Source: a virus. Taken from it: a stretch of 46,124 bases of DNA. Both the position numbers and the translations under genes were made by a program. The stretch spans positions 1 through 46,124 of IMG/VR virus record IMGVR_UViG_3300027969_000157. One strand, 5' to 3'. Positions 1,866 through 46,003 of the stretch are shown here, one piece after another (the stretch's first letter is position 1; the number at the start of each line of letters is the position of its first letter). The notes under the pieces are model-generated. The model did no database searches. It was not told where the DNA came from and saw nothing but the letters and a program-made list of their open reading frames with translations.

Positions 1866-1892
1866 TTTATAGACAAAGAAAGGAACTAAATC

Positions 1893-2126: not shown

Positions 2127-2141
2127 TAATGTTGTAAAACT

Positions 2142-2173: not shown

Positions 2174-2190
2174 TTTGTGAAGGAAGAAAA

Positions 2191-2850: not shown

Positions 2851-2898
2851 TTAAAGATTAAACTTAGGTAGCCTTAACCCCTATATAAAGGAAAAACC

Positions 2899-3222: not shown

Positions 3223-3235
3223 TTAAGGATTAATC

Positions 3236-3589: not shown

Positions 3590-3613
3590 TAAATCGCCTT
3601 TTAAGGATTTTCT

Positions 3614-5803: not shown

Positions 5804-6510
5804 GTATTGTTCTTCAATCTACTGGTGGCGGTCAAATCACCATCCAAGAGCCAACAACTGCTAGTAACTTTACGCAGACCTTACCTGCTGCTAATGGTAC
5901 TGTTGCTTTATATGCTGATCCACAAGTAACAACTTATACATCAGGCTCTGGTACATATACTGTGCCGACTGGGGCTAAATATTTACAAGTTCGTTTAGTC
6001 GGTGGTGGCGGTGGCGGTGGTGCTATTTCAAGTGGTGGAAGTGCTGGCGGTGCTTCAAGTTTTGGTAGTTCTTTTTTATCTGCAAATGGCGGTGGCGGTG
6101 GTTCAGTTGCAACAGGTTCTAATGCTTTAGGCGGCTCTGCTTCGGGTGGAGATATAAACATAACTGGTGGACAAGGCGGTGCTGGTCCACAACCAGTACC
6201 AGCAAGTTATGCTCCTGGCGGTGCTGGTGGAAATTCACCTTTTGGTGGTGGCGCTGGTCAATCTCAAGCTAATACCACTGGTACTGCTGGTGCTACAAAT
6301 AGTGGTGGCGGTGGTAGCGGTGCTTCAGGTGGTTATAGTGGTGGTTCTGCTGGCGGTGGTGGTGCTGGTGGTTATTGTGAAAAACTCATTACATCTCCAT
6401 CTGCTACATATTCTTATGCTGTTGGTGCTGGTGGGGCTGGTGGTTCTAGTGGTACTGCTGGCGGTGCTGGTGGAAGTGGAATAATTATTGTTACAGCATA
6501 TTTTGGATAA
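5800..6510 (+). CDS. Glycine-rich tail adhesin (phage B copy)
   Basis: A 236-aa protein starting at ATG 5800, which overlaps the previous stop. After an N-terminal domain (about 1-60) and the segment YTVPTGAKYLQVRLVGGGGG, the protein consists of poly-glycine stretches separated by short variable loops. It closes with YSYAVGAGGAGG and GIIIVTAYFG. This pattern is like the polyglycine-helix sandwich of receptor-binding adhesins such as those of T-even relatives, where the loops between glycine runs contact the receptor. The copy at 41573 has the same frame but different loop residues. Receptor-binding is an inference from architecture. Confidence 0.75.
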   Translation: MSIVLQSTGGGQITIQEPTTASNFTQTLPAANGTVALYADPQVTTYTSGSGTYTVPTGAKYLQVRLVGGGGGGGAISSGGSAGGASSFGSSFLSANGGGGGSVATGSNALGGSASGGDINITGGQGGAGPQPVPASYAPGGAGGNSPFGGGAGQSQANTTGTAGATNSGGGGSGASGGYSGGSAGGGGAGGYCEKLITSPSATYSYAVGAGGAGGSSGTAGGAGGSGIIIVTAYFG

Positions 6511-6514
6511 TATT

Positions 6515-6796
6515 ATGAACAAATACGCAATCATTCAAAACGGCTTAGTTATTAATTACATTGAGTATCAAACTCAACCCAATAATCCTCCACCTTCTTT
6601 TGAAGAAGAAACAATAGCCGTATTAAACAATAATGTTGGTGTTGGTTATACATATAACAATGGTGTCTTTACTGAACCCCAGCCATTCCCTAGCTGGATT
6701 CTTGTAAACAACAAATGGACTGCACCAGTAGAAAAACCTTCTGATGGTATTTATCTTTGGGATGAAGCTACTACAAGCTGGAAGGAATTAGCATAA
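6515..6796 (+). CDS. Small tail-fibre-associated protein (phage B copy, 93 aa)
   Basis: A 93-aa protein starting MNKYAIIQNGLVINYIEY. An upstream in-frame start at 6488 would overlap the adhesin, so ATG 6515 is preferred. The sequence has a repeated W-x-W-like pattern (PSWILVNNKWTAP, YLWDEATTSWKEL) resembling short carbohydrate-binding or tail-fibre chaperone-like proteins. The homologue at 42288 is about 90 percent alike by eye. The stop TAA overlaps the next start by one base (TAATG). Function unknown; fibre assembly factor is the best contextual guess. Confidence 0.55.
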   Translation: MNKYAIIQNGLVINYIEYQTQPNNPPPSFEEETIAVLNNNVGVGYTYNNGVFTEPQPFPSWILVNNKWTAPVEKPSDGIYLWDEATTSWKELA

Positions 6797-7920
6797 TGGC
6801 TTACGGAACAGTAAACGCTGATGTAATTCAGACTTCTACTAGCGGTGGAATACTAGGTGCTGGTAACGCTTCTATTATGAAGAATAGAATTCAGAATGGG
6901 GCAATGGTTATTGACCAAAGAAATGCTGGTGCTAGTGTTACTTCTGCAACTAATGGCGGCTATACACTTGATAGATGGGCAATTCAAAACAATAGCGGTG
7001 CAAGTCGTTACACTATTCAACAAAATGCTGGTTCAGTAACACCACCAACAGGGTTTAGTAATTATCTTGGATGCACTTCAACTTCTGCTTATACAGTAGG
7101 TAGTGGTGATGCTTTAGGAATGTTTCAGCGTATTGAAGGGTTTAATACTTCTGATTTAGGTTGGGGAACTGCAAACGCTAAAACTGTTACTTTATCTTTT
7201 CAAGTTCGTTCATCCTTAACTGGAACTTTTGGCGGTGCTATTAAAAATAGTGCTGATGATTATTCTTATCCGTTTACTTACACAATTTCTTCTGCAAATA
7301 CTTGGACAACAATCAGCGTAACTATTGCTGGTCCAACAAGCGGAACTTGGGTAGGTGCTACAAACGGCACAGGGGTAATGATTATTTTTGCTTTAGGCAC
7401 AGGCTCTACACTAGCTGGAACTGCTGGCTCTTGGTCGGCAAACGGATATTATGGTGCAACTGGGCAAACGCAAGTAGTCGCTACTAATGGTGCTACATGG
7501 TATGTAACTGGTGTTCAACTAGAAGTAGGAAGTAGTGCTACTGGATTTGAGTATCGTTTATATAATCAAGAATTAAGTGCTTGCCAAAGGTATTATGAAA
7601 AATCTTATTCTATTAATGTAACCCCAGCAACTAATACTGCTTTTGGAACAGTATCATTATTTACAAGTAGCACTCCAGTTGGTTATTTGGCTGGTTCAAG
7701 AAGTTTTTTAGTTTCAAAAAGAACATCACCAACTATAACAATTTATTCTCCTAGCGGAACATCTGGAACTGTGGCTGATGGAAATACTACTGATTATGGT
7801 GCTGGCACTGCAAATCAAATTGGCACAAATGGATTTGGTTTGCAAAACACAAGTGGTTCTACTTATTCCCCAGCAGGAAATTTAATTTATTTCCATTACA
7901 CAGCAAGTGCGGAGCTATAA
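6796..7920 (+). CDS. Receptor-binding tail-fibre protein with variable C-terminus (phage B copy, 374 aa)
   Basis: A 374-aa protein whose first 35 or so residues (MAYGTVNADVI, then GAGNASIMKNRIQNG) match the 314-aa protein at 42569. The NASxMKNRIxNG motif is common at the N-terminus of tail-fibre proteins from aquatic phages. Beyond residue 45 the two copies share only scattered segments such as GVQLEVGSSATGFEYR, which are typical of a carbohydrate-binding-type jelly roll. The last 110 residues are unrelated to the A copy. This looks like the host-range determinant. The gene ends with TAA directly abutting the next ATG. Confidence 0.75.
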   Translation: MAYGTVNADVIQTSTSGGILGAGNASIMKNRIQNGAMVIDQRNAGASVTSATNGGYTLDRWAIQNNSGASRYTIQQNAGSVTPPTGFSNYLGCTSTSAYTVGSGDALGMFQRIEGFNTSDLGWGTANAKTVTLSFQVRSSLTGTFGGAIKNSADDYSYPFTYTISSANTWTTISVTIAGPTSGTWVGATNGTGVMIIFALGTGSTLAGTAGSWSANGYYGATGQTQVVATNGATWYVTGVQLEVGSSATGFEYRLYNQELSACQRYYEKSYSINVTPATNTAFGTVSLFTSSTPVGYLAGSRSFLVSKRTSPTITIYSPSGTSGTVADGNTTDYGAGTANQIGTNGFGLQNTSGSTYSPAGNLIYFHYTASAEL

Positions 7921-8181
7921 ATGTATAAATATCTTTCATTTAATAATGTCAAAAATGGTGTTATCCGTTTATCAGACAACGCTTGCATCCCATTCGACCC
8001 TGACAACACAGACTACCAAGCCTTTAAAACTGCCGTATTAGAACAACAACTTGGCGGTTTAGTAGAAGATGGTGATTCATTTAGCCTAAATACTAATCCT
8101 AATGATTCCATATTAGAAGATGCGGATGGTAATGTAATGACCATTGATGAAGCCAAAGAATATGTAAGGACTTTGCCATGA
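7921..8181 (+). CDS. Small fibre-linked acidic protein (phage B N-terminus, shared C-terminus, 86 aa)
   Basis: An 86-aa acidic protein. Its first 27 residues differ from the 90-aa copy at 43515, but from NTDYQAFKTAVLEQQ onward they are the same apart from L/F at one position. The shared part begins the 977-bp identical block. It lies right after the variable receptor-binding gene, the place where fibre-specific chaperones are usually found. That its N-terminus varies together with the preceding fibre C-terminus supports a matched chaperone or attachment pair; this is inference. The stop overlaps the next start (ATGA). Confidence 0.55.
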   Translation: MYKYLSFNNVKNGVIRLSDNACIPFDPDNTDYQAFKTAVLEQQLGGLVEDGDSFSLNTNPNDSILEDADGNVMTIDEAKEYVRTLP

Positions 8182-8648
8182 GCATGATTATTGATGGGAC
8201 TAATGGTCTAACATTTAACAACGCTACTACACAGAATAGCGGTGGCAAAGTATTGCAAGTAACTACTGCTACATCTACTTCTTCATTTTCCACAAGTAGT
8301 GGTAGTTATGTAACAACTGGAATTTCTGCTTCAATTACGCCCCTATTTTCCACAAGCAAAGTATTAGTTTTATTTTCTGCTTTTAATATGGTTCAAGCTG
8401 GGAACATGGCTCCAACCTTAACTGTTTATCGTGGCGTTTCACCTTTAGATACAACTGGTTTTGCACAAATTTACGCCCCAAGTGGGACTACTACTGGGGG
8501 GGCGTCAGGGGTTTATTTAGATAGCCCAGCCACAACATCATCTACTGCTTACACACTTTATTTTAGAAATCAAAATAACAATGGAAGCGTTACTTTGAAT
8601 AGCTCAAATGGTTTAATTTCTATTGTTTTAATGGAGGTTGCGGCATGA
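8178..8648 (+). CDS. Tail-fibre tip-like protein (156 aa, identical in both copies)
   Basis: A 156-aa Ser/Thr-rich protein (MSMIIDGTNGLTFNNATTQNS). The opening IIDGTNGLTFNN motif is widespread in phage tail-fibre proteins. The rest is predicted beta structure resembling small jelly-roll or complement-like modules. The copy at 43784-44254 is identical in protein. A run of seven G (8496-8502) lies in the coding sequence. It overlaps both neighbours by 4 bp, so it is translated with them. The role as fibre component is inferred from motif and context. Confidence 0.65.
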   Translation: MSMIIDGTNGLTFNNATTQNSGGKVLQVTTATSTSSFSTSSGSYVTTGISASITPLFSTSKVLVLFSAFNMVQAGNMAPTLTVYRGVSPLDTTGFAQIYAPSGTTTGGASGVYLDSPATTSSTAYTLYFRNQNNNGSVTLNSSNGLISIVLMEVAA

Positions 8649-8875
8649 ACAATTATTTTACTCAAGCACTTTATAAGTTATATCCACAAATTATTTCTAC
8701 TGTAAATGACAATGCTTATGATGCAGACGGAAATGAAGTAATTTATGATTTACAAGTCGTAACTGCACAAGCTGAAGCTGATGCACAATCAGTTATTGAT
8801 ATAAGGGCTTCTGCACTAGCTAAACTAGCTGCACTAGGTTTAACCCAAGACGAAGTTAAGGCATTAGTCGGATGA
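8645..8875 (+). CDS. Small tail-fibre-cassette protein (76 aa)
   Basis: A 76-aa protein with an N-terminal part (NNYFTQALYKLYPQIIST, YDADGNEVIYDLQ) resembling short fibre-assembly or spanning proteins, and a helical C-terminal part (ALAKLAALGLTQDEVKALVG) often seen at the end of phage tail-fibre assembly proteins. Its copy at 44251 differs only by D to N in TQDEV. It is tightly coupled by 4-bp overlaps on both sides. Function not established. Confidence 0.55.
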   Translation: MNNYFTQALYKLYPQIISTVNDNAYDADGNEVIYDLQVVTAQAEADAQSVIDIRASALAKLAALGLTQDEVKALVG

Positions 8876-9183
8876 TTACTTATACATGGTCAATTTTAGA
8901 AGTATTTGGCGATCAGACGATTACCAAAGTTCGTTACACATTGAAAGCACAAGATGAGCAAAATACTGTTGAAACTGAAGGCTACCATGAATACTCTGAA
9001 GGATTGGTCAATAAATCTTTATCACAAATTAAAGAGCAAGATTTGATTGGCTGGCTTGTATCTGATACTACCCAAGATGGTTTAAACCCTATAAAATTGA
9101 ACCTAGAAAACCAATTAAAATCATTAAAAATTGACCAAAAAATTGATTTTCCTTGGGAAAACAACACATTTACGGCGGAATAA
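8872..9183 (+). CDS. DUF7936-like small protein (103 aa), spans the B/A junction
   Basis: A 103-aa protein starting MITYTWSILEVFGDQTITKV, a pattern I associate with the DUF7936 family of phage tail-region proteins (Ile/Val-rich start with alternating charged residues, then NQL..L). The first 37 residues nearly match the copy at 44478. After TVETEG the two copies diverge (HEYSEGLVN versus HTFLQGTII). The near-identical block ends inside this gene at 8981, so this copy joins a shared front to a phage A back. Function unknown; it precedes the gp4-like gene by 3 bp. Confidence 0.6.
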   Translation: MITYTWSILEVFGDQTITKVRYTLKAQDEQNTVETEGYHEYSEGLVNKSLSQIKEQDLIGWLVSDTTQDGLNPIKLNLENQLKSLKIDQKIDFPWENNTFTAE

Positions 9184-9186
9184 GTT

Positions 9187-10179
9187 ATGGCAAAGCCAAT
9201 TGACATCATTACTGGTTCTTTAAAAGATATTGGTGCATTGGCGGCCGGGGAAGCCCCTACCAATGATGCGGCGCAAGATGCCCTAGAAATGTTAAATTTG
9301 ATTGTTGACCAATGGTCCAACGAAAACATGATGGTTTTTAACATTCAAGAAATTATTTGGAATGTAATACCAGGCCAAGTTCAATACACCATTGGACCAA
9401 ATCACACTACCAATAACTTTATTGGGGCGCAATATACGGGTTCAATCACCGGCAACGTATTGACTGTAACGGCTATTAGTAGCGGTGCAGTAGTGGTAAA
9501 CCAGTATTTAAGTGGATCAGGCATTACTGATGGCACTAAAATTATTTCCACTTTAACTGGTGCTGGCGGTAACGTTAACGAAGTTGGTACTTATTTACTT
9601 AATATCACTTATGCAAGCCCAGTAGCTTCCCAGCTAATCCAAGCTTATTACGCCAAGCCGTTAAATATTAATTCTGCTTACGTGCGTATTAATACTAGCC
9701 AAAGTAGCGGAAGCCCCATATTAACTGGTGGTATTGACTATCCAGTAGCTTGTATTGCCCTTGAAAACTACAATTCTATTGGCCTTAAAACGCTTAATGG
9801 ACCGTGGCCTAAAGCCCTTTATTTCAATGCAAATGAAGATTCAGGCAACGTTTTCTTATGGCCAAGCCCATCCCAAGGCGAAGTTCATATGTTTGCTGAA
9901 ACATTGTTCAGAACTTATGATTCGCTTTATGACGATGCAACATTGCCACAAGGCTATACGGCGGCATTGCGTTGGTGTCTTGCTGAACGTTTGATGCCGA
10001 TGTATGGCAAAACAAACCCAGTATTGTTAGCCCAAATTGGGGCTTTTGCCGCACAAGCTAAAGCTACCTTGAAATCAACAAATATGGCTCCAATGCGTGT
10101 TTCACGTTATTCAGATGCCTTATTAATGAGCAGAGCAAAAGATGCTGGATGGATTCTCACCGGCGGTTTTAATAATTAA
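9187..10179 (+). CDS. Tail accessory factor, P22 gp4-like (phage A copy, 330 aa)
   Basis: The N-terminus ([20 protein letters not shown], then [11 protein letters not shown]) and the C-terminus ([28 protein letters not shown]) match the P22 tail accessory factor family, which binds below the portal and starts tail assembly. P22 gp4 is about 166 aa; the protein here is twice as long. The extra residues, about 75-155, are one beta-rich repeat ([18 protein letters not shown], then [15 protein letters not shown]). The B copy at 44798 contains two such repeats. It opens the phage A-type stretch after the junction and is followed by the gp10-like gene 8 bp later. Confidence 0.88.
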
Positions 10180-10187
10180 GGTCAAAT

Positions 10188-12296
10188 ATGCCTGATTTTG
10201 GATTTGTTGGCCCATCATATGAAGCCCCTTCCATCTACCAAGATGCACAGGAATGTATTAACTTTCGTCCTGAAATTGATCCATTAAAACAACCTGGACA
10301 AAACGGAGTGGTAGCGTTATATCCAACTCCAGGATTAACAAACAAAGTTACTTTATTCAATACCGCAGAAGTACGGGGCATGAGAACTGTTAGCGGTGGA
10401 AATTATTGCGTTGCAGTATGTGGTCAATATGTTTATGTATTGAGTTCTACATTTACACCAACTATTGTGGGTACTTTAAATAGTTCTACTGGCATAGTGG
10501 GCATTACTGATAACGGCCTAAATGTTTACATAGTTGACGGTTCTTACCGTTATACATGGCGCATTTCTAACCCGTCAGCGGCACAATTTATTGGTAGTGT
10601 AGGGCCATCTAGCACTACATTGACAGTTACAAGTATGAAATCCGGTACTTTAGCCGTAGGTCAACAATTATTTGGTGTAGGTGTTACTCCTCAAACCGTG
10701 ATTACCGCACTTGGAAGCGGTTCAGGTGGAGTTGGTACATACACGCTTAATTTAAGTCAAACTGTTGCTTCACAAACTTTAAATACTGCGGCCGTAGCGG
10801 CTAGGGTTACGGGATCAATTTCTGGCACCGTTTTAACTGTAACTGCGGTCACTAGCGGAACTTTATACCCAGGCCAAACCATTCAAGGTACTGGCGTAAC
10901 CGCTGGTACAATTATTACGGCCTTGGGTGGTTCTGCGGCATTATCTTTTTCTATTACTACTGGTGGTTCAGGATATGCCGTAGGTGACACTATAACGGTC
11001 ACAGGCGGTGTTTATAGCCAACAAGCTACCTACACAGTAGCAACCGTAGCGGCTGGCGTAGTTACCGGTTTAACTACTGTAAACAATGGTGTTTATACAG
11101 TTGTTCCAGGCACACCATCCCAAACAACTACTAGCGGTAATGGTACAGGGTTAACCCTTACATTAACGTTTGGTACAGGCACAGGGGGCACAGGAAGCTA
11201 TGTTGTCAGCACTTCACAAACTGTTGCATCAACTTCACTTTATGTACTTAACTTTAGTGTTATGCCAGCTAATGATGGTCCTTTTACCGGGGCTGATGTT
11301 GTTGATGTGGTGGATAACTACTTTGTATATAACAGGCCAAATACTCAACAATTTGGTGCTTCTTCCCCTTTATCCCCTATTTCCCCATCATTAAGCTTTA
11401 GTTCTAAAGATGGCGCACCGGATAATTTAGTTTCTATTATTGTGGATCACCGAGAAGTGTATTTATTAGGTGAAGTATCTAGCGAAGTTTGGGTAGATAG
11501 CGGATTATTCCCTTTTGCTTTTCAACGTATTCCGGGAACATCCACCCAGCATGGTATTGCCGCTAAATTTAGCGTTGCAAGGTTAGGCAATTCTTTTGCT
11601 TATGTAAGCCGCAATATTCGTGGCCAAGCCCAAATCATGATGATGAATGGCTATATGCCAACCCGTATTAGTACTCATGCCGTAGAAAACACATTAGTTG
11701 ACCAATACATTAATGATGCCAGGGCATGGACTTATCAATTAGAAGGCCATGAAGTGTACGTTGTAAGTTTTCCAACCCTTGATTTAACTTGGGCTTATGA
11801 CGTTACTACCAATATGTGGCATAAATGGCTATGGGTAGATTCTAAAAACGTATTTCATCGGCATCGTGGAAATTGTCATGCAAGTTTCCAAGGATTAAAC
11901 ATTGTTGGTGATTATGAAAACGGTCAGATTTATATGCTTGACCCCAATAATTACACAGATAACGGTGAAGAAATACGCAGAATTCGCCGTGCGCCCCATT
12001 TAATTAGCGATTATCAACGCCAATATTTTGCTGAATTACAAATTCATTTTCAACCTGGTATTGGTTTGCCGGATGGTTCTGTTCCACAAGCTATGTTACG
12101 TTGGTCAGACGATGGCGGCTCTACTTATTCAAATGAGCATTGGACCAGCATTGGCGTACAAGGCGCATACAAAAACCGTGCTATTTGGCGTAGATTAGGG
12201 CAGTCACGGGATAGAATATTTGAAGTGGTAGTGACTGATCCAATCAATGCCGTGATTACTGCGGCCAATCTTAAAGCGGAAGCTGGGGATAACTAA
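10188..12296 (+). CDS. Packaged-DNA stabilisation / tail protein, P22 gp10-like (phage A copy, 702 aa)
   Basis: The start [21 protein letters not shown] and the central part ([36 protein letters not shown] in pieces) are characteristic of gp10-type proteins, which close the portal-gp4 channel and retain packaged DNA. P22 gp10 is 472 aa. About 240 residues (roughly 135-375) are inserted repeats such as [19 protein letters not shown] and [18 protein letters not shown]. The C-terminal segment [18 protein letters not shown] is intact. Context: gp4-like gene upstream, 1-bp overlap with the next gene. Its phage B counterpart starts at 46004 and leaves the window. Confidence 0.88.
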
Positions 12297-19462: not shown

Positions 19463-20058
19463 CTAATGATCAATTAAAAGCCCTTGGCCTTGGCGAACAA
19501 TGGCTTGACCCATTAAACGAAACGTTTGATAAATACCAAATTAATACGCCGCAACGCCAGGCGTGTTTCCTAGGGCAAACCCTTCATGAATCCGGTAACT
19601 TTAAATTTACTAAAGAAAACTTAAATTATTCGGCTAAAGCATTAATGGCAACCTGGCCAAGCCGGTTTCCTGATATGGATACTGCAACGCAATATGAACG
19701 CCAACCTGAAAAAATAGCCAGCAAGGTTTATGTTGGCCGCATGGGCAATGAAACACCGGAAGATGCCGCCAAATTTATAGGCCGTGGATTGATTCAAATT
19801 ACCGGTAAAGAGAACTATACGCATTGTGGCGAAGCTTTAGGCATTGACTTGATAGCCCAGCCCCATTTTTTAGAAGAACCCCGTTACGCCATGTTATCGG
19901 CTGGCTGGTTTTGGAATAAAAAAGGGTTAAACGCCCTGGCTGATGAAGGCACTAAAGATGCTTTTGAAGTAATGACTAAACGTATTAATGGTGGTTTAAT
20001 TGGTTTAGATGACCGTAAAGCCAAAATGAACGAAGCACTTAAAGCACTAGGAGCATAA
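19459..20058 (+). CDS. Endolysin, glycoside hydrolase family 19 (199 aa)
   Basis: A complete GH19 chitinase-type lysozyme. HESGNF (residues 43-48) contains the catalytic acid E44; E53 in KENLNYSA is the probable second glutamate; GRGLIQITGKENY (108-120) is the substrate-cleft signature. The C-terminal AGWFWNKKGLN and TKRINGG motifs are also present. No signal peptide is seen, so export depends on the holin encoded directly upstream. Size matches phage GH19 endolysins. It cleaves the glycan chain of peptidoglycan. Confidence 0.93.
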   Translation: MTNDQLKALGLGEQWLDPLNETFDKYQINTPQRQACFLGQTLHESGNFKFTKENLNYSAKALMATWPSRFPDMDTATQYERQPEKIASKVYVGRMGNETPEDAAKFIGRGLIQITGKENYTHCGEALGIDLIAQPHFLEEPRYAMLSAGWFWNKKGLNALADEGTKDAFEVMTKRINGGLIGLDDRKAKMNEALKALGA

Positions 20059-20845: not shown

Positions 20846-20874
20846 AATTTACTAAAGATTACTTTAGTTGTAAA
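20846..20874 (-). promoter_or_regulatory. Leftward promoter with embedded operator
   Basis: On the minus strand, -35 TTTACA (20874-20869) and -10 TAAATT (20851-20846) are separated by 17 bases. A perfect inverted repeat, ACTAAAG-N4-CTTTAGT (20851-20868), fills the spacer. The same palindrome type recurs at 22950-22967, 22971-22988 and 23601-23618, so the Cro-like protein probably binds here and blocks RNA polymerase. Confidence 0.72.
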
Positions 20875-22947: not shown

Positions 22948-22988
22948 AATGTAAAGTAAAATTTAGTTGTTGTAAAGTAATATTTAGT
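22948..22988. promoter_or_regulatory. Divergent control region: leftward promoter and two operators
   Basis: Two near-identical sites, TGTAAAGTAAAATTTAGT (22950-22967) and TGTAAAGTAATATTTAGT (22971-22988), are spaced by 21 bp, two helical turns. On the minus strand, -35 TTTACA (22976-22971) and -10 TACATT (22953-22948) with a 17-bp spacer overlap both sites. The rightward promoter for the Cro-like gene must also be here; its boxes are less clear (TAATAT at 22978-22983 is a possible -10). Binding by the Cro-like protein would shut both directions. Confidence 0.7.
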
Positions 22989-23004
22989 AAAAAAGGAAAA
23001 ATAA

Positions 23005-23229
23005 ATGACTGATGCACAAATGATTGACCTATTGGGCAAGCCAGCAAAGGTAGCAAAGCTATGTGGCGTAACGGTCCAGGCGGTGTGTCAATGGCGCAAC
23101 AACAACGCAATACCAGCCGCCCCATTGATGCTAATAGCGGCAACCATAGAACGTGAAAGCCACGGTTTAGTGTCAAGAAAAGACTTGTTTCCTGAAACTT
23201 ATGGATTGATATGGCCTGAAATAATGTGA
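23005..23229 (+). CDS. Cro/YdaS-like DNA-binding regulator (74 aa)
   Basis: A 74-aa protein with a helix-turn-helix at about residues 12-33 (KPAKVAKLCGVTVQAVCQWR), typical of Cro and YdaS-type regulators of lambdoid prophages and phages. The C-terminal part (LMLIAATIERESHGLVSRKD) probably forms the dimer surface. It is divergent from the leftward operon, with two operators directly upstream. No CI-type repressor and no integrase are found in the 35.6-kb genome, so this may be the only transcription switch. Ribosome site AAAAGGAAAA precedes ATG 23005. Confidence 0.82.
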   Translation: MTDAQMIDLLGKPAKVAKLCGVTVQAVCQWRNNNAIPAAPLMLIAATIERESHGLVSRKDLFPETYGLIWPEIM

Positions 23230-23238
23230 TATAGTTTT

Positions 23239-23360
23239 ATTCATTGAGGACTTGAACACTCATGAATAGGGTTTTATTGGTGGTTTTAGGGTTTCGGAAA
23301 TAAGATAAGAGGTATTTCCAAAGCCGTTCAAGCTAAAGCTACCAATAAAACCCTTTTTTA
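23239..23360 (+). ncRNA. Candidate structured RNA / long-stem terminator after the Cro-like gene
   Basis: Between the Cro-like gene and the next operon there is no gene for 435 bp. The first part folds well. ATTCATTGAG (23239-23248) pairs with CTCATGAAT (23259-23267) with one bulge. Its loop contains CTTGAAC (23251-23257), which is complementary to GTTCAAG at 23326-23332, giving a possible pseudoknot. A 13-pair perfect stem, GGGTTTTATTGGT (23269-23281) with ACCAATAAAACCC (23341-23353), is followed by six T. Inside it, GGAAAT and ATTTCC form a minor hairpin. It acts at least as a terminator; the long loop and pseudoknot suggest more. Confidence 0.5.
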
Positions 23361-23369
23361 TTGTTCAGT

Positions 23370-23560
23370 TCCCATCGTTCTGATTGGGGATTCACCACCA
23401 CCAGCGGTCAGAATAGAAGCGTTACTGGGGGATCAAAGGATGCAATAGCGCAAAGTAGGTGGCGAAGATAGTGCCTACTCCTTGAACGACTGTCGGGTTC
23501 TGTGGCTCCATATAGGGAAAACAGTTGAAGGCGAACCAGGTGGGCTAGGTTCGTCCACCA
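23370..23560 (+). ncRNA. Candidate structured non-coding RNA of unknown class
   Basis: No open frame of useful size exists here, and the region is richer in G and C than its surroundings. Visible pairings: TCCCA (23370-23374) with TGGGGA (23385-23390), whose loop TTCTGA (23378-23383) complements TCAGAA (23408-23413); AGTAGG (23454-23459) with CCTACT (23474-23479); CGACTGT (23487-23493) with ACAGTTG (23521-23527); CGAACC (23532-23537) with GGTTCG (23548-23553), whose loop GGTGG (23539-23543) complements CCACC (23555-23559). Two pseudoknots and three hairpins in 190 nt are more than I would expect by chance. It does not look like tRNA, tmRNA, RNase P or a group I intron core. It could instead be a replication origin. 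Confidence 0.45.
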
Positions 23561-23594
23561 AACGGGAATAAGTATAAATACCTAGTAATAAACA

Positions 23595-23645
23595 TATACA
23601 AGTAAAGTAATCTTTAGTAAGATAGTTGTACTAACATAAGTTAGT
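23595..23645 (+). promoter_or_regulatory. Rightward early promoter with embedded operator and 5' hairpin
   Basis: -35 TATACA (23595-23600) and -10 TAAGAT (23618-23623) are 17 bp apart. The operator AGTAAAGTAATCTTTAGT (23601-23618) fills the spacer. The transcript would start close to the perfect hairpin ACTAAC-ATAA-GTTAGT (23630-23645), followed by GAATAAAAAAGGAT and the first gene. Operator placement is the same as in the leftward promoter at 20846-20874. Confidence 0.72.
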
Positions 23646-23664
23646 GAATAAAAAAGGATAAATA

Positions 23665-24039
23665 ATGTTTGAACAATTTTGGAAACATTACCCCAGGAAG
23701 GTAGCTAAACGTGCCGCCCTTGGGGCATTTAACCGGCTGACTAGCGATGAACAAACCCAGGCCGTAGAAGCCATAGAACAACACGTAGCCTATTGGAAAC
23801 TAAAGGGTACTGAAATGGATTTTATATGCCATGCAACCACGTGGCTAAACCAAGGCCGGTGGGAAGATGAACTGGATATGACACCTAAAGAAGTAAAGCG
23901 TCCTTCATTACCTTGGTATAGTAATGATGAACTTACTTTGGCCAAGGGCCGGGAACTAGGACTTAATGCTTACGCCGGTGAATCTATGGGACAGTACCGC
24001 CAACGAATTGCCCAACAAATCGGAAAAATGGCGGTATGA
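23665..24039 (+). CDS. Replication-protein-type domain protein (124 aa)
   Basis: A 124-aa protein starting FEQFWKHYPRKVAKRAALGAF, then FICHATTWLNQGRWEDEL. This is the domain usually found at the C-terminus of phage replisome organisers (lambda O/DnaT-like proteins), here standing alone at the start of the rightward early operon. It probably helps bring host helicase to the origin. No helicase loader, primase or polymerase is visible, so the phage relies on the host replisome. A clear ribosome site AAAAAGGAT precedes ATG 23665. Confidence 0.65.
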   Translation: MFEQFWKHYPRKVAKRAALGAFNRLTSDEQTQAVEAIEQHVAYWKLKGTEMDFICHATTWLNQGRWEDELDMTPKEVKRPSLPWYSNDELTLAKGRELGLNAYAGESMGQYRQRIAQQIGKMAV

Positions 24040-26084: not shown

Positions 26085-26438
26085 TTACAATTCCAGCGGA
26101 TCAAAGCCTAGTTCATTGGCTACCATCTTGCAACGGGTTCTAAACGGCTTTCCATGTTGCATCCATTTATCCCCTTTTTGTTTATAAAAACTCATATGTA
26201 CGCACTCATGGGCAAGGGTGGTTAAAACGGTATAAAAGTGGCTACAACGCCCTGATGATATGGTAATGGTGTGAGCATAGTCACCGCCAGTATCTAGCAG
26301 ATACGTACCCATTAATTCAGGATCAGGCGTAACAATAAACTCTATTTCTTCAGGCAATGGCATCGGCCATTTAGTGAATGGGTAAGTGCAATACAGGCTG
26401 GAATACAAATGCTTTAATGCTTCAGGTGTCAATTTCAT
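26085..26438 (-). CDS. SprT-like zinc metalloprotease (117 aa)
   Basis: A 117-aa protein with HECVH at residues 77-81, the HExxH zinc motif, and a further histidine in MQHGKPF (H95) as likely third ligand. This arrangement is seen in SprT/WSS1-like phage proteases. The N-terminal part (LYSSLYCTYPFTKWPMPLPE) has no signal peptide, so it acts in the cytoplasm. Substrate unknown. It overlaps the phosphoesterase gene by 17 bp and is translated after it. Confidence 0.75.
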   Translation of the reverse strand: MKLTPEALKHLYSSLYCTYPFTKWPMPLPEEIEFIVTPDPELMGTYLLDTGGDYAHTITISSGRCSHFYTVLTTLAHECVHMSFYKQKGDKWMQHGKPFRTRCKMVANELGFDPLEL

Positions 26439-27387
26439 GTAATTTGCCCCTAAAGAACACTAGCCCTTCATCTTCATTAATAACTTGAACAAGTTCGGGC
26501 GGCATTAAATGGCCGTTGATATAAGTAAGAACTGCAAATCCGGCACGCCAGTTGACGCTTGCATTTTCATGGTAAATAAATTGTTCATCTTTAACTGCGG
26601 CCATCATTCCGGTATCAACACCGTATAAATCGCCCGTATAATTTGTCCATGGGGTTACTTTTAAAGAATGTAGATGGCCCGTGACCATGCTCAAGCCCCC
26701 CTTTAAAATATTGTTATATACCGCATGAATACCGTTATGCCACCGGTGTTTTATCATTGTATTGTCGTTAACACGCACAGACCAACTGTATGACCAACCT
26801 GGCAAATGATCAGCTAAACACATACCTTTTACGCCTTCATACTGGGGTAAAACGTTAGATAATTTGCCATCAAAACGAAGGTCATGATTACCAATGGTGC
26901 GGTGCAATATACAACCAGCCGGTCTAACTTTTTCAATGTCACCTAATCGGTTTTGAACTTCTTCTAATTCTTGTAAGACTGTTGGGTGTTTTTGATAACC
27001 AATACGGTTATGTTGACTAATTTGTGCAAAATCAAACAAATCCCCATTTAAAACAACCATATTTGGTTTTAATTGTTTAATAAAATGTACAAAAGCACGG
27101 TGTGCAGTAGATACATATTCAGGGTTATAGTGGCAATCAGAACCCACAAAAATCATGCCATTTTTTAATTCATATTGACATTCTATTTTGTTTTCAGGAA
27201 TTTCAAACCTTGGTATTCCACGATTATTGTTAGATACAAGCACAATATCGTGCTTTTTTTCTAGATTTCTTCTACGGGCAATTACACTTCTAGTATCAAC
27301 ATTCAATATTTTGGCTACGGCCGTAGGGGACCTATGTTCTTTAAATAATGCTATAAACTCTTGCTCACTACACGCTGGTTTAGCCAT
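26422..27387 (-). CDS. Calcineurin-like metallophosphoesterase with N-terminal HTH (321 aa)
   Basis: All metal-binding motifs of the calcineurin superfamily are present: SDCH (83-86), GDLFD (115-119), GNHD (166-169), a histidine in KHRWHNG (about 214-218) and GHLH (237-240). Residues 1-50 (EQEFIALFKEHRSPTAVAKI, then RSVIARRRNLEKK) look like a helix-turn-helix that could bind DNA. Phage relatives of this type are common in early regions and may act on nucleic acid ends or nucleotides; the real substrate is not known. It is transcribed leftward from the 57-bp gap shared with the VRR-NUC gene. Confidence 0.85.
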   Translation of the reverse strand: MAKPACSEQEFIALFKEHRSPTAVAKILNVDTRSVIARRRNLEKKHDIVLVSNNNRGIPRFEIPENKIECQYELKNGMIFVGSDCHYNPEYVSTAHRAFVHFIKQLKPNMVVLNGDLFDFAQISQHNRIGYQKHPTVLQELEEVQNRLGDIEKVRPAGCILHRTIGNHDLRFDGKLSNVLPQYEGVKGMCLADHLPGWSYSWSVRVNDNTMIKHRWHNGIHAVYNNILKGGLSMVTGHLHSLKVTPWTNYTGDLYGVDTGMMAAVKDEQFIYHENASVNWRAGFAVLTYINGHLMPPELVQVINEDEGLVFFRGKLHEIDT

Positions 27388-35904: not shown

Positions 35905-36810
35905 ATGTCAGAAGCACAAGTAGTGGACCAGCCAAAACAGGCCAGTTCAATAGTAACAAGTGAAAATTTAGCGGATTTTAATGCTGATAAATTAGGTTTA
36001 GCTTCCGAATCAAGCCCAACTGCGGCTACTGTTGATGAAAATCCAGTAGAGCCAGCGGCCGAAAAAGGACAGAGTGAACCGGAATTAGCGGAAGATGAAG
36101 CGACCGGAACAGAAGAAAAGAAGCAAAACCCAAAGTTAGAAAAGCGTTTTTCTGAACTTACTAGGCAACGCAAAGAAGCGGAAGCCAAAGTTAAAGAGTT
36201 GGAAGAACGTTTAGCGGCTAAAGAAAGTATTCGGGAGCCACAACCGGCACCTGAAAGCAATCAAAAGCCGTCCCCTGACAGTTACAAAGATGCTTTTGAA
36301 TATGCAGAAGCATTAGCGCAATGGTCAGCGGAACAAGCATTGGCAAAGCGTGAACAGGAAATTAAGCAAAAGGAAGCTGAAGCTAAACGTGAAACGGTCA
36401 TTAAGACCTGGCAACAAAAGCTAGAAGCAACTAAAGCAGAATTACCTGATTACGAAGTTATGGTGGCATCAAGTAGCGTTAAAGTAAACGATACGGTACG
36501 TGATGCAATTGTTGAAAGTGACGTAGGACCAAGAATCCTATACGAACTGGCAAGCAATGATGAATTAGCTGAAAAGCTATCTGACATGACTACTGCAAGT
36601 GCTTTAAAACTAATTGGGAAGCTGGAAGCGCAGTTTGAAAAGACTGATGCCCCAGTAGCGGAAAAGAAAACTGTTGCGGCGAAGTCTAAAGCACCTGAAC
36701 CTATTCGTCCTTTAAGGTCAACTGGTGGCGTAGCCGAAGTAGTTACTGATGGAAATGATCTATCGTATCAACAATGGAAAGCCGCAAGACAAGCCGGGAA
36801 GATTAGATAA
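35905..36810 (+). CDS. Scaffolding protein (phage A copy, 301 aa)
   Basis: Start ATG 35905 is preceded by TTGGAG; an in-frame TTG at 35893 is less likely. Residues 1-100 are acidic and disordered, residues 105-180 form a coiled coil rich in Lys/Glu (PKLEKRFSELTRQRKEAEAK), and the C-terminus KAARQAGKIR is basic, the coat-binding type end of P22 gp8 (303 aa). The length matches well. The phage B copy at 1-606 keeps the C-terminal 200 residues. It lies between portal and coat. Confidence 0.8.
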   Translation: MSEAQVVDQPKQASSIVTSENLADFNADKLGLASESSPTAATVDENPVEPAAEKGQSEPELAEDEATGTEEKKQNPKLEKRFSELTRQRKEAEAKVKELEERLAAKESIREPQPAPESNQKPSPDSYKDAFEYAEALAQWSAEQALAKREQEIKQKEAEAKRETVIKTWQQKLEATKAELPDYEVMVASSSVKVNDTVRDAIVESDVGPRILYELASNDELAEKLSDMTTASALKLIGKLEAQFEKTDAPVAEKKTVAAKSKAPEPIRPLRSTGGVAEVVTDGNDLSYQQWKAARQAGKIR

Positions 36811-36843
36811 GGTTAAACCTAATTTAATTTTGAAAGAAATATC

Positions 36844-38082
36844 ATGTCAAATAATTTATTAACAATCAGCAAGATCACCAACGAAGCGTTGATGGTTCTT
36901 GAAAACGAATTAACATTTACAGGCCAAGTTGACCGTAACTATGATGACCAATTTGCCGTAGTTGGTGCAAAGATTGGTCAGACAGTTAATGTACGCCGTC
37001 CTGGACGATTCCTAGGCGCAATTGGGCCGAATTTAGTAGTTGAAGATTTCAACGAAACTTCAGTACCAGTTACATTGTCAACACAGTTCCAAGTTTCAAC
37101 ACAGTTCACAACCCAAGATTTGGCATTGAGCCTTGATATGTTCTCGGACAGAATTTTGAAACCGGCAATCGCTACAGTTGCAAATAAGATGGATAGAGAT
37201 GGTTTGTTAGTTGCTAAAAACAACACCGCAAACATCGTTGGTACTGCTGGTACTGCACCAACTGGTTTGATTACTTACCTGACTGCGGCCGCTTATCTTG
37301 ATTCTGAAGGCGCACCACGTGATGGCCGCCGTTCATGCACAATTGAGCCATTTACATCTTCAACAATCGTTGATAGCTTAAAAGGTTTGTTTGTTCCAAC
37401 AGAGCAGATTTCTAGCCAATACACCAAAGGCTTGATGGGCCGTGATTCCGGTGGTATGAACTGGTATATGGACCAAAACGTTGTTTCACAAACTTTCGGT
37501 TCTTATGCTTCTGCTACTTTATCTTGCAACGTAACAACTGCAACTGGCTTCTTGACAAGTGGATGGGCTTATTCAAGCAACATCACTATCGGCGCTACTT
37601 CTGCGGCCGCTACATTGAACCAAGGCGATACATTCACCATCGCTGGCGTATTTGCGGTTAACCCACAAAACCGTCAGTCTTATGGCAAATTGCGTAACTT
37701 TGTAGTTCAATCTACAACTGCAATTGGTTCCGGTGGTACTGCAACTGTTACCGTTGTTCCAGCCGTTATTACTGCTGGTCAGTTCCAAAACGTTAGCGTT
37801 ACATCAACTGGTTCACAGACAGTTACACCATTTAACAATACTGGCGTAACTTCACCACAGAACATTTTGATGCACCGCAACGCATTTACATTAGCTTGTG
37901 CTGACTTGGAATTGCCTGAAGGCGTTCATTTCGCTGGCCGTGCTTCTGATAAAGAACTAGGTTTGTCAATTCGTGTGGTTCGTCAATACACCATCAATAA
38001 CGATTCCATCCCAACACGTTTGGACGTTCTGTATGGCTGGGCACCTTTGTACCCTGAATTGGCTTGCCGTGTAGCATCGTAA
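36844..38082 (+). CDS. Major capsid (coat) protein, P22 gp5 family (phage A copy, 412 aa)
   Basis: Homologue of the protein at 636-1865. Long identical segments include VDRNYDDQFAVVGAKIG, FNETSVPVTLSTQF and RVVRQYTINNDSIPTRLDVL. Differences are enriched at residues 215-325, which may be the exposed insertion domain. At DNA level most codons differ at third positions, so A and B separated long ago in this gene. Ribosome site GAAAGAAAT precedes ATG 36844. Forms the icosahedral shell with the scaffold encoded directly upstream. Confidence 0.93.
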   Translation: MSNNLLTISKITNEALMVLENELTFTGQVDRNYDDQFAVVGAKIGQTVNVRRPGRFLGAIGPNLVVEDFNETSVPVTLSTQFQVSTQFTTQDLALSLDMFSDRILKPAIATVANKMDRDGLLVAKNNTANIVGTAGTAPTGLITYLTAAAYLDSEGAPRDGRRSCTIEPFTSSTIVDSLKGLFVPTEQISSQYTKGLMGRDSGGMNWYMDQNVVSQTFGSYASATLSCNVTTATGFLTSGWAYSSNITIGATSAAATLNQGDTFTIAGVFAVNPQNRQSYGKLRNFVVQSTTAIGSGGTATVTVVPAVITAGQFQNVSVTSTGSQTVTPFNNTGVTSPQNILMHRNAFTLACADLELPEGVHFAGRASDKELGLSIRVVRQYTINNDSIPTRLDVLYGWAPLYPELACRVAS

Positions 38083-38086
38083 TGAA

Positions 38087-38114
38087 ATAGGGGGCGTAAA
38101 ACCCCCCATTTTTA
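38087..38114 (+). terminator. Terminator after the phage A coat gene
   Basis: GGGGG (38090-38094) pairs with CCCCC (38102-38107) and ATTTTT follows. The phage B coat gene has no hairpin at this place. It would lower expression after the coat gene. Confidence 0.65.
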
Positions 38115-38140
38115 AACACTAAATTTAAGGAATTAATATC

Positions 38141-38563
38141 ATGGCAAATCCAGGCCCAGCAACAACCGTAACAAATCACCCATCGAACCTAGCAACTAAC
38201 CAGGCTATTCGCCTATTAGCTTCTTATCAGGGTGTTAACGTAAACGCAACTGGCGATACAGTTCTACCAATTTTGAATACTGGTAGCTACTCTGTTTCCA
38301 ACGTTATTTTCACTAACGCTTCTGTAAGCTTATCAAGTGCCGCCGCTGGCTTGTTTACTGCACCATCCGCTGGTGGTACAGGAATCGTAGCTAACGCCGC
38401 ATTGTCAGCTTTAAGTGCTTCAACCGTTGTAAGCCAACGTACTGTTGCTTCAACTGCGGCACAAACCGGTCAAAACTTGTACGTTAACGTAGGTACTGCA
38501 CAAGGTGCGGCGGCTACTATGGACGTATATGTTTACGGTTACGACTTAACTTTCCTACCTTAA
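38141..38563 (+). CDS. Small head-associated protein (phage A copy, 140 aa)
   Basis: A 140-aa beta-rich protein, MANPGPATTVTNHPSNLATN..., with ribosome site AAGGAAT. The first ten residues resemble the 77-aa phage B protein at 1893; the rest is different and nearly twice as long. The middle part (SSAAAGLFTAPSAGGTGIVA) is Ala/Gly-rich. It sits between two terminators. Possibly a decoration protein; no known family is identified. Confidence 0.6.
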   Translation: MANPGPATTVTNHPSNLATNQAIRLLASYQGVNVNATGDTVLPILNTGSYSVSNVIFTNASVSLSSAAAGLFTAPSAGGTGIVANAALSALSASTVVSQRTVASTAAQTGQNLYVNVGTAQGAAATMDVYVYGYDLTFLP

Positions 38564-38587
38564 TAGGGATCAGGAAATAGTGAGGAA

Positions 38588-38616
38588 AGCCACCCCCATA
38601 AAGGGTGGTTTTTTTC
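38588..38616 (+). terminator. Rho-independent terminator after the 140-aa gene
   Basis: CCACCC (38590-38595) pairs with GGGTGG (38603-38608) and is followed by seven T (38609-38615). It corresponds to the phage B terminator at 2142-2173, although the sequences are unrelated. The glycosyltransferase-like gene of B is absent after it. Confidence 0.82.
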
Positions 38617-38661
38617 CTTTTTACGCTTATAATTAATCATCCTCATTTAAAGGAAATTACC

Positions 38662-38985
38662 ATGCCATCTACTACACTCGCACGTGGAAATGCACTTAAT
38701 ACTTTCTACGTTCAACCATCTATTACCCCAGCCGAAGTAGCCGCAAATATTACCGCCGCACAAACTTTTACCATTGCTGGCCTATTAACAACTGACCATG
38801 TAACAGTTTCATGCGTTGGCGCACAAACTGCCGGAATTTTTATTGCAGATTCACGTGTTTCAGCCGCTAATACATTAAGCGTTCAATTTGGTAACTGCAC
38901 CGCTGGCGCATTGACACCAGCCGCCGGTAACTACATTATTGACGTAATTCGTTTTGAAGGTCCATTGCCAACAACGGCGGTTTAA
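38662..38985 (+). CDS. Small conserved head/decoration-like protein (phage A copy, 107 aa)
   Basis: ATG 38662 with ribosome site AAAGGAAA is preferred; an earlier in-frame start at 38605 lies in the terminator. The product is 107 aa, the same length as the phage B copy at 2899 and similar throughout (RFEGPLP-TAV at the end). Conserved in both phages with mostly silent DNA changes, so it is under selection. Family unknown; capsid or tail-attachment role is inferred. Confidence 0.6.
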   Translation: MPSTTLARGNALNTFYVQPSITPAEVAANITAAQTFTIAGLLTTDHVTVSCVGAQTAGIFIADSRVSAANTLSVQFGNCTAGALTPAAGNYIIDVIRFEGPLPTTAV

Positions 38986-38987
38986 TC

Positions 38988-39341
38988 ATGGCCGCCACTA
39001 ACGTATTACGCCCTATTGGGCCAACAACGTATGTTGCAGTAACAACCAGTTCATCTACTGCGGTCACTATTAGTGCTTCAGGAAATAACCAAATGGACTA
39101 TTGCGCCTTTTTAAATACAGGCACAACACCCATTGCAATTACTATTGTTCCAGTTGTAGCTGGGTCAGGAACCGCCGGAACAACGGCTTTTCCATCCGAT
39201 GGTGCTTCAGCAAACATAGTAGTTTTGGGTGTTTCCATGCAAATGCCAATGGTTATTGCCGTACCACCAGTATTTTCGGTAACTGCTAAAGGACTTGCTT
39301 CAGTTGGTTTGTATATCACCCCAGTTGGTGATCAGTCTTAA
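38988..39341 (+). CDS. Small beta-rich virion-type protein (phage A copy, 117 aa)
   Basis: A 117-aa protein with the same length and end (YITPVGDQS) as the phage B protein at 3236. N-terminal part MAATNVLRPIGPTTYVAV differs more. Start lies 2 bp after the previous stop and shares TAATCATGG spacing. It precedes the fibre gene by 9 bp (AAAGGAAAAGT ribosome site for the next gene). Unknown family. Confidence 0.55.
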   Translation: MAATNVLRPIGPTTYVAVTTSSSTAVTISASGNNQMDYCAFLNTGTTPIAITIVPVVAGSGTAGTTAFPSDGASANIVVLGVSMQMPMVIAVPPVFSVTAKGLASVGLYITPVGDQS

Positions 39342-39350
39342 AGGAAAAGT

Positions 39351-41576
39351 ATGACCAGCCCATCTAATTCTGATGTACAGAATTTATTACCAGTTCAAGC
39401 TTACTTCAATTTAGATGGGTCTTTTAATACTTTTATTGGTCAAGGCAACCCGTTTTATGCAACGGCTAATCCGGTTCAATCCGGCCTTACCATTACCAAT
39501 AGCACCTTAAATAGTAGCCCAATTGGTGGTACAAGCCCTTCAACGGGTGTATTTACAAACATTGCAACAACAACCGGCACAGTATCAACCCAGCCAACTG
39601 GCGCAACTGATATTGTCAACTTGCTGGCATTACAGTCTTATGCCGCTGGAATTAGCTGGAAACAACCTTGTGCAGTAGGAACATTGGTCAACATTACATT
39701 GTCAGGATTACAGACAATTGATGGTTACACTACATTGGCCGGTGACAGAGTATTAGTTAAAAACCAAGCAATTGCCGCTAATAATGGTATTTACCTAGCT
39801 TCTGCAACTGCCTGGACACGTTCCCTTGATGCTAATTCGTGGGATGAATTGATTTCAGCTATTTCATTCCTTGAATATGGTTCACAAGCTGGTGGCGCAT
39901 GGTATTGCACCGCACAACCAGGTGGAACATTAGGCGTAACTGCCGTTAACTGGTCACAATTTACTACTTCAGCAACGTATTCCGCTGGAACTGGCCTTAC
40001 CCTTACTGGTACCGTATTTAGTATCACCCCAATAGGAACCGCTTCAACTTACGGTTCTGCTACCCAAACCCCAGTATTTACCACTAATGCAAGCGGTCAA
40101 GTAACTGCCGTAACTAACACAACAATTACTCCGGCCGTAGGATCAATTACTGGCCTTGGTACTGGCGTTGCAACATTTTTAGCAACCCCAACTTCTGCTA
40201 ATTTAGCCGCCGCAGTAACCGATGAAACTGGTTCAGGAGCATTAGTATTTGCCACTAGCCCAACGTTGGTTACACCAATATTAGGTACGCCACAATCAGG
40301 TAACTTTAGTTCCGGTACATTCACTTGGCCTACTTTTAATCAAAACACTACTGGTACTGCTTCAAAAGCAACCAATTTAGTAGGTGGTGCGGCTGGTTCT
40401 TTGCCTTATCAATCTGCCGTTGATACCACAACATTCTTGGCCGCTGGCACTAATGGACAAGTTCTTACATTAGCGGCTGGCGTTCCATCCTGGGCAACTC
40501 CAACAACCGGTACTGTAACTTCTGTTGGAACCGCTGGAACTGTTAGCGGAATTACCCTTACTGGTGGGCCAATTACTAGCACCGGAACAATTACCCTTGG
40601 TGGCACTTTAGATTTATCTTCACCCCCAGCAATTGGTGGCACTACTCCAAATACCATTACTGGTACAACCATTACTGCCAATACTAAATTTGTAAGCCCT
40701 TATTTTGATGCGGCTAATTCGGCTGGCGGTTCATTAAGAAATGCTAGTGGAACTGCTTGCTTGCAATGGGGTGGCGGTGGCGGTGCAAATTTAACAGTTG
40801 ATGTATCTGCTAATTTAAATGGTGCAAACGCACAAATTGATATTAGCCCTACTGGAACTGGTCATGTTCATATAAATCCTGCTGGATCAGGCTCAGTTGA
40901 AATTAAACCTACAAATGCTGGAGTAATGGATAACATGGTTATTGGTGGAACAACACCTTTAGCTGGAACATTTACTAATTTAAGATTTAACGGCACTTTA
41001 TCTTTGGCTGGATCAACTGGAACTGCTGGATATGTGGTCACTTCCAATGGTGCTTCTGCTCCAACCTGGCAAGCCCTTCCAGCCACAGGATTAGGTATTG
41101 TTGATGATACGACTACCAACGCAACTCGTTATGTCACCTTTACAAGTGCTACAAGTGGAAATATTACAACTGAAAACGTCAGTTCTACCAAGCTTCAATA
41201 CAACCCTTCAACTGGTGCTTTAAGTGCTACTAAATACTTTGGCGATGGATCTTCTTTAACTGGAATCGTATCAGGCGCAACTATCAGCAACGATACGACT
41301 ACTGCAAGCAATTTATACCCATTGTTTTCTTCTGCTACAAGCGGAACTCCAACAACGATTTATACAAGTAATGCAAAGTATTTGTATAAGCCAAGCACAG
41401 GCGATTTACAAGCAAGCCAGGTTATAGCAAACAATGGATTAGTTCTTAATAATGCAACTGTATCGTCAAGCTATACGATTGCAAGCGGTTATAACGCAAT
41501 GAGTGTTGGCCCTATGACAGTAGCAAGCGGTCAAACAGTTACAGTATCCTCAGGTCAAAGGTGGGTAATTCTATGA
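39351..41576 (+). CDS. Large tail-fibre/tail-spike type protein (phage A copy, 741 aa)
   Basis: Homologue of the 729-aa protein at 3614. The first two thirds differ from the B copy by many silent changes and a short insertion (ATPTSANLAAAVTDETGSGA at about residue 280). From about 40680 on, the DNA becomes much more similar to B; 40749-40867 is identical to the corresponding B DNA. This change of similarity inside one gene points to recombination. Beta-repeat composition and position are as in the B copy. Confidence 0.75.
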   Translation: MTSPSNSDVQNLLPVQAYFNLDGSFNTFIGQGNPFYATANPVQSGLTITNSTLNSSPIGGTSPSTGVFTNIATTTGTVSTQPTGATDIVNLLALQSYAAGISWKQPCAVGTLVNITLSGLQTIDGYTTLAGDRVLVKNQAIAANNGIYLASATAWTRSLDANSWDELISAISFLEYGSQAGGAWYCTAQPGGTLGVTAVNWSQFTTSATYSAGTGLTLTGTVFSITPIGTASTYGSATQTPVFTTNASGQVTAVTNTTITPAVGSITGLGTGVATFLATPTSANLAAAVTDETGSGALVFATSPTLVTPILGTPQSGNFSSGTFTWPTFNQNTTGTASKATNLVGGAAGSLPYQSAVDTTTFLAAGTNGQVLTLAAGVPSWATPTTGTVTSVGTAGTVSGITLTGGPITSTGTITLGGTLDLSSPPAIGGTTPNTITGTTITANTKFVSPYFDAANSAGGSLRNASGTACLQWGGGGGANLTVDVSANLNGANAQIDISPTGTGHVHINPAGSGSVEIKPTNAGVMDNMVIGGTTPLAGTFTNLRFNGTLSLAGSTGTAGYVVTSNGASAPTWQALPATGLGIVDDTTTNATRYVTFTSATSGNITTENVSSTKLQYNPSTGALSATKYFGDGSSLTGIVSGATISNDTTTASNLYPLFSSATSGTPTTIYTSNAKYLYKPSTGDLQASQVIANNGLVLNNATVSSSYTIASGYNAMSVGPMTVASGQTVTVSSGQRWVIL

Positions 41577-42283: not shown

Positions 42284-42287
42284 AACT

Positions 42288-42569
42288 ATGGACAAATATG
42301 CAATCATTCAAAACGGGTTAGTTATTAACTACATTGAATATGAAACTCAGCCTGACAATCCTCCCCCTGCCTTTGAAGAAGGCACAATAGCTGTATTAAA
42401 TAACAATATTGGTGTTGGTTATACTTATAACAATGGTGTATTCACCGAACCAAAGCCATACCCTAGCTGGGTACTTGTAGATAACAAATGGACTTCACCA
42501 ACAGAAAAACCTTCTGATGGTATTTATCTTTGGGATGAAGCTACTACAAGCTGGAAGGAATTAGCATAA
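42288..42569 (+). CDS. Small tail-fibre-associated protein (phage A copy, 93 aa)
   Basis: Starts at ATG 42288 (MDKYAIIQNGLVINYIEY); a further in-frame start at 42276 overlaps the adhesin gene. Highly similar to the copy at 6515, with the same C-terminal SDGIYLWDEATTSWKELA. The next gene begins within its stop (TAATG). Probably a fibre assembly factor or small fibre part, from context only. Confidence 0.55.
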   Translation: MDKYAIIQNGLVINYIEYETQPDNPPPAFEEGTIAVLNNNIGVGYTYNNGVFTEPKPYPSWVLVDNKWTSPTEKPSDGIYLWDEATTSWKELA

Positions 42570-43513: not shown

Positions 43514-43514
43514 A

Positions 43515-44789: not shown

Positions 44790-44797
44790 GATAAGTT

Positions 44798-45994: not shown

Positions 45995-46003
45995 GGCTGG
46001 AAA

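Follow-up and report, generated by a model that had tools for sequence, protein, structure and literature searches.

The 435-bp gap analysed here (positions 23230-23664) lies in a 46-kb IMG/VR record of a freshwater phage, the whole 46,124-nucleotide stretch being referred to hereafter as the window; features are on the plus strand unless otherwise stated. The gap is preceded by a gene (23005-23229) encoding a Cro/YdaS-like DNA-binding protein, which matched both Pfam PF14549 (P22_Cro) and PF15943 (YdaS_toxin) above the cut-off, and is followed by a 124-aa gene (23665-24039) that opens the downstream operon and whose relatives gave the syntenic loci L003-L082. The open-frame list contained no long frame in the gap, an AT-rich stretch (22% GC) follows it, and a blastn search of the region against annotated phages gave no match. 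Further downstream, within the rightward gene block, positions 26085-27387 carry two genes on the opposite strand, one SprT-like (just below the Pfam cut-off) and one encoding a metallophosphatase; several relatives have opposite-strand gene pairs of similar size at a similar distance. The structural-gene block is present twice in the window (571-10298 and 36775-46114, 71-88% identity), and because of this duplication the record probably represents a phage genome of about 36 kb plus part of a second, related strain, joined in a chimeric assembly.

The best promoter-like site of the region (TTGATA-18-TATAGT, extended -10; 10/12, with TG) is located at 23206-23235, within the end of the cro-like gene. 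The near-palindromic sequence GTAAAGTAATCTTTAGTA occurs at four sites in the window (20850-20867, 22951-22968, 22972-22989 and 23602-23619), against 0.10 expected. Two of these sites precede cro, none lies at the promoter described above, and the last is found just before the 124-aa gene, after the RNAs described below. From their sequence and placement, they are probably operators of the Cro-like protein, and their presence before cro and after the second RNA, rather than at the RNA promoter, suggests that the RNAs of the gap escape Cro control.

A preliminary description, based on the letters of the sequence, had proposed that the gap contained a single structured RNA of no recognizable class, or an origin. 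This interpretation is supported in part. All the pairings it named are present in the sequence, and the gap is indeed structured, with a fold energy well below that of shuffled sequences (z = -5.8) and covariation among relatives. Nearly all of this energy signal comes from the first 120 or so bases (z = -6.8), whereas the remaining structured part folds no better than shuffles when taken alone (z = -0.6), an uninformative value, so the expected energy excess holds for the gap as a whole and for its first part but not for its second. Energy alone is thus misleading here, and the comparison of relatives decides; the evidence for the second part is covariation. We conclude that the gap almost certainly holds two RNAs rather than one, and that the second belongs to the catalogued family RF02932, the first having no match in Rfam.

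The first RNA (about 118 nt, 23242-23359, its 5' end being placed from the promoter) is predicted to begin with a hairpin (23245-23262) with CTTGAAC (23251-23257) in its loop; similar 5' hairpins are visible in other loci. A long stem follows, with 22-nt arms (23268-23289 and 23333-23354) and a T6 tract (23354-23359), as predicted for an intrinsic terminator. Its complement lies within the final 9 nt of the terminator loop, where GTTCAAG (23326-23332) lies immediately 5' of the 3' arm. Both this loop pairing and the terminator stem, as originally proposed, are real, since the architecture recurs in unrelated sequences: a long terminator-like hairpin was found directly upstream of RF02932 in 44 of 88 diverse loci, often with unrelated sequences, and, with the omission of one doubtful case (L114), a kissing pairing of at least 6 bp was possible in 36 of the remaining 43, which include close relatives and do not therefore represent 43 independent events. 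The mean length of the kissing complement was 6.3, as against 3.9 when each phage was given the tail of another (the highest value in 300 such swaps was 4.28). The alternative fold proposed for a second CTTGAAC, at 23481, is unsupported, because the loop letters of the first RNA differ among phages; that copy belongs to a helix of the second RNA (PK2, below). In other loci, hexamers resembling a -10 element cluster ahead of the first RNA, with 31 in one 12-nt window, against a mean of 11.9 and a maximum of 20 in shuffles. Judging from these sequence patterns, the first RNA is a putative terminator RNA with a kissing loop, which recurs among phages and is absent from the catalogue.

The second RNA matched the full model (positions 1-120) of Rfam family RF02932, "Betaproteobacteria-1", at 23377-23498, with a score of 88.3 bits (cut-off 49.4). 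A literature search by family name or accession found nothing. Copies were collected from 80 loci via the downstream gene, and further copies were obtained with a core pattern, giving 89 diverse copies, 63 of which were aligned over 23376-23568. The scan of the genome collection (257 Gb) with this pattern of 15 fixed bases returned mostly chance matches, which were filtered by a profile or covariance model. The limit of conservation places the 3' end at about 23571, giving an RNA of about 195 nt (23376-23571) that extends well beyond the 120 positions of the model. Of the helices described here, P1, P2 and P3b are the three that Rfam models. P1 (23378-23384/23407-23413), which includes the TTCTGA/TCAGAA pairing of the preliminary description, has two-sided changes in all 7 pairs, and P3b (23467-23472/23489-23494) is 98.9% paired; both are fully paired and covarying. 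In P2 (23419-23451), the inner pairs are 71% paired, and the outer pairs, which are misaligned, were left out of the pair counts.

The alignment also indicates several helices lying outside the Rfam model. PK1 (23401-23404/23425-23428) joins the P1 loop to the 5' part of P2 (96.8% paired, two-sided changes in 3 of 4 pairs), and PK2 (23436-23440/23479-23483) joins the P2 loop to the P3 region (89% paired, two-sided changes in all 5 pairs). P3a (23455-23459/23474-23478) is pseudoknotted with P3b; like PK1 and PK2, it crosses modelled helices, and its pair 23457/23476 is formed in all 63 sequences (AU 25, GC 24, CG 14). Such a number of distinct compensated pair types would be hard to obtain otherwise. 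Beyond the 3' end of the model lie P4 (23499-23503/23521-23525; 88.7% paired, all 5 pairs with two-sided changes) and P5 (23530-23537/23548-23556; 85% paired at its closing pairs and 66% at its inner ones). The H-type pseudoknot initially proposed in this 3' domain stands only in one half: GAACC/GGTTC is part of P5, whereas GGTGG/CCACC is not general, its middle pairs forming in only 31 of 62 and 28 of 63 sequences, and the third loop of such a pseudoknot would not be long enough to bridge the other stem. For the complete structure P1-PK1-P2-PK2-P3a-P3b-P4-P5, 86.0% of cells were paired, with 562 two-sided changes in the 63 sequences, versus 67.3% and 188 for shuffles and no more than 42% and 125 when partners were slid by 1-3 columns; these counts describe the alignment and do not amount to an independent test, because many pairs were chosen by mutual information on an overlapping alignment. 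The conservation of pairs in relatives is thus strong, and, on this comparative basis, the 3' domain, PK1, PK2 and P3a are predicted additions to the known family.

Many unpaired letters of this pseudoknotted fold are invariant in the 63 sequences, and a U-G pair, as read on the plus strand, is kept in 53 of them. The segment GGTGGCGAAG (23458-23467), the ends of which pair in P3a and P3b, was identical in 63/63 sequences, an invariance that provides limited independent support because the viral search pattern required it. Together with GAACGACTG (23483-23494), which follows after a short gap, it has what we take to be a resemblance to the central domain of 16S rRNA, with the two segments in the same order, possibly by chance.

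Two short repeats, X1 (23511-23518) and X2 (23561-23568), both with the core GGGAA in the window, flank the P5 segment. These repeats are 5-9 nt long and about 50 nt apart, and their letters vary among phages. Their columns covary by identity rather than complementarity, two of the column pairs ranking 8 and 13 for corrected mutual information, among the base pairs. The longest word shared by X1 and X2 had a mean length of 7.0, versus 4.56 (sd 0.14) when partners were shuffled between phages. In comparisons of near-identical RNA cores, the two repeats switched jointly in 64 of 65 cases, corresponding to 17 distinct switches; the comparisons are not independent, because sequences are shared between them and a single recombination event could carry both sites. 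No complement of X1/X2 was found in the RNA or in the 5-14 kb around it (reverse complements, 4 versus 2.4 expected), and direct copies of X elsewhere numbered 9, versus 2.4 expected on the assumption of equal base frequencies. This joint switching is a strong evolutionary signal, and no base-pairing partner found so far explains it.

The syntenic relatives show that the two RNAs occupy slots, in each of which the unit is replaceable by an unrelated RNA. Slot 1 contains either the type present in the window (A), an unrelated type A' (L006, L022, L025 and L026) or other hairpins (L071, L074 and L075), and is empty in L057-L069. Slot 2 contains RF02932 or an unrelated RNA of about 245 nt, RNA C, which is carried by L007, L012, L020, L035, L082 and, in a diverged form, L073-L079 (copies at L012:4004-4244, L035:3466-3708, L082:889-1131 and L076:3810-4059, among others). 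RNA C has no Rfam match, and two-sided changes were observed in 19 of its 49 predicted pairs. The combinations found were A+RF02932, A'+RF02932, A+C, A'+C (L035) and RF02932 without a first RNA, and the flanking genes are the same whether slot 2 is occupied by RF02932 or RNA C. Where the first RNA is missing from AT-rich loci, inspection by eye showed a TANNNT resembling a -10 element immediately ahead of P1, which would make P1 the start of the second RNA there.

In 35 records searched for RF02932 copies, several of which had been picked because they carry RNA C, the family was single-copy in all 25 phage records scoring over the cut-off; Caballeronia temeraria (contig C28) has two copies, at 6608-6724 and 19633-19749, 13 kb apart. 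The named carriers all belong to the Betaproteobacteria (Variovorax, two Caballeronia and Azonexus), to which Acidovorax phage AP1 can be added. Late genes (terminase, portal or capsid) share the strand of the RNA in all 10 mapped records with recognizable ones, and in 17 mapped records the coding up to 10 kb downstream is mostly on that strand, with a long opposite-strand block less than 10 kb downstream in two of them (G018 and G011). Upstream of RF02932, the genes are mostly leftward, with replication genes in AP1 and similar phages, and the gene immediately before it differs among phages. In AP1, RF02932 immediately follows the primase stop codon, ahead of the terminase and structural genes, with no evident promoter or terminator between primase and RNA; likewise, in Variovorax and other prophage-like loci, it lies inside an operon without an evident promoter or terminator of its own. 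Many related phages carry the RNA pair ahead of a rightward operon, probably with a role in transcription control.

We tentatively favour, by analogy with known systems, a role for the second RNA as a cis-acting transcription-control leader of the put/EAR kind. The promoter at 23206-23235 would produce mostly the short, terminated first RNA, which would serve as a gate, and the second RNA would be made by read-through past the terminator; in phages without a first RNA, it would be made by direct initiation or by transcription from upstream genes. Folding on the nascent transcript, the second RNA would then act in cis on the elongating polymerase or the leader, the matched repeats X1 and X2 providing two sites for one partner, such that the long middle or late operon would be transcribed. 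The RF02932 score and the covariation, including that of the pseudoknots, speak for this reading, as do the kissing terminator RNA (36/43), the -10-like cluster before it and the TANNNT before P1 where it is absent. The single copy per record, the shared late-gene strand with mostly co-directional downstream coding, the placement after the primase stop codon in AP1 and the retention of the same flanks with RF02932 or RNA C also point in this direction. Against it, the terminator lies upstream of the second RNA and not only downstream, the gene downstream probably has a Cro-controlled promoter of its own, terminators beyond the second RNA in the window are about as frequent as expected by chance (17, against 13.8), and two records have the opposite-strand blocks mentioned above.

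Three known systems offer partial parallels. The EAR processive antiterminator of Bacillus eps operons is a structured cis-acting RNA heading a long operon, a position that the second RNA appears to share; we know of no homology between the two. The 6S leader of lambda, between pR' and tR', and attenuators in general have a strong promoter followed by a short terminated RNA, with a longer operon behind. The first RNA would similarly be short, terminated and located at a promoter, but its terminator loop is predicted to kiss the 5' hairpin, and a large second RNA comes behind it. The put RNA of HK022, the closest analogue with tested activity, of about 70 nt with two stem-loops, lies downstream of the early promoters, twice (PL and PR), and suppresses termination over distances of at least 10 kb, in cis and without a phage protein (PMC9378689). 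Like put, the second RNA would be a structured RNA in an early phage leader, behind an early promoter and ahead of long operons, but, at about 195 nt, it is approximately three times as large, with five hairpins and three further helices, is preceded by a terminator, and is present once per phage, whereas HK022 has both putL and putR. Membership of the put group is not claimed.

The main rival to the cis-acting leader, and one nearly as likely, is a trans-acting role: both units would be genes for stable small RNAs that bind a protein or RNA of the host or phage (polymerase, a defence factor or a component of the ribosome, for example), their position after cro providing early expression only. 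This would account for the complex pseudoknotted fold with its many invariant unpaired letters, the putative promoter that abuts P1 in loci lacking a first RNA, the predicted termination of the first RNA and the free exchange of units. Less readily reconciled with independent RNA genes are the operon-internal copies of RF02932 in AP1 and in prophage-like loci, those of Variovorax included, for which neither a promoter nor a terminator is evident; the same applies to the late-gene strand, shared in every record tested, and to the fact that in the window no terminator comes immediately after the second RNA. An RNA that cuts, splices or is processed at X1 and X2 would also fit the nested pseudoknots, which reach ribozyme-like complexity, and the joint switching, between near-identical RNAs, of direct repeats separated by about 50 nt; this explanation is improbable, given that no known ribozyme family in Rfam matches and that the RNA and the 5-14 kb around it contain no guide complementary to X.

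We similarly consider it unlikely that the second RNA is a leader riboswitch or a translational control element of the next gene. The leader-region location and conserved unpaired segments would suit such an element, but the distance from the end of the second RNA to the 124-aa gene ranges from about 90 bp to more than 1.5 kb in close relatives, some of which have intervening genes, and a probable promoter with an operator lies between the two. An origin, the other possibility raised in the preliminary description, or a primer RNA has early genes nearby and the AT-rich stretch beyond the gap in its favour; this reading is nevertheless very improbable, as cumulative GC skew shows no turn or extremum at 23.2-23.7 kb, RNA-type G-U pairs are conserved on the plus strand, the upstream genes differ among phages, and RF02932 lies downstream of the helicase and primase genes in AP1.

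A more speculative reading, which we consider rather doubtful, is that the pair constitutes a hitherto undescribed RNA-only phage control cassette, in which a kissing-loop terminator RNA is combined with a large pseudoknotted RNA whose matched, phage-specific repeats read a single partner. If so, specificity would be rewritten by changing both repeats together, and the partner could be a phage protein that evolves fast, a target nucleic acid or a pair of processing sites. RF02932, for which the sources consulted give no function, is now placed in phages, on the late-gene strand, with a fuller predicted structure, a terminator-RNA partner that can be exchanged and, in RNA C, a counterpart that can take its place, and a concrete hypothesis can be proposed for it: RNA-based control of late transcription in phages of Betaproteobacteria.

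One of the phage contigs carrying RF02932 (L161) also contains, at 4325-4382, a match to the type II hammerhead ribozyme, with a score of 38.1 bits (cut-off 37).
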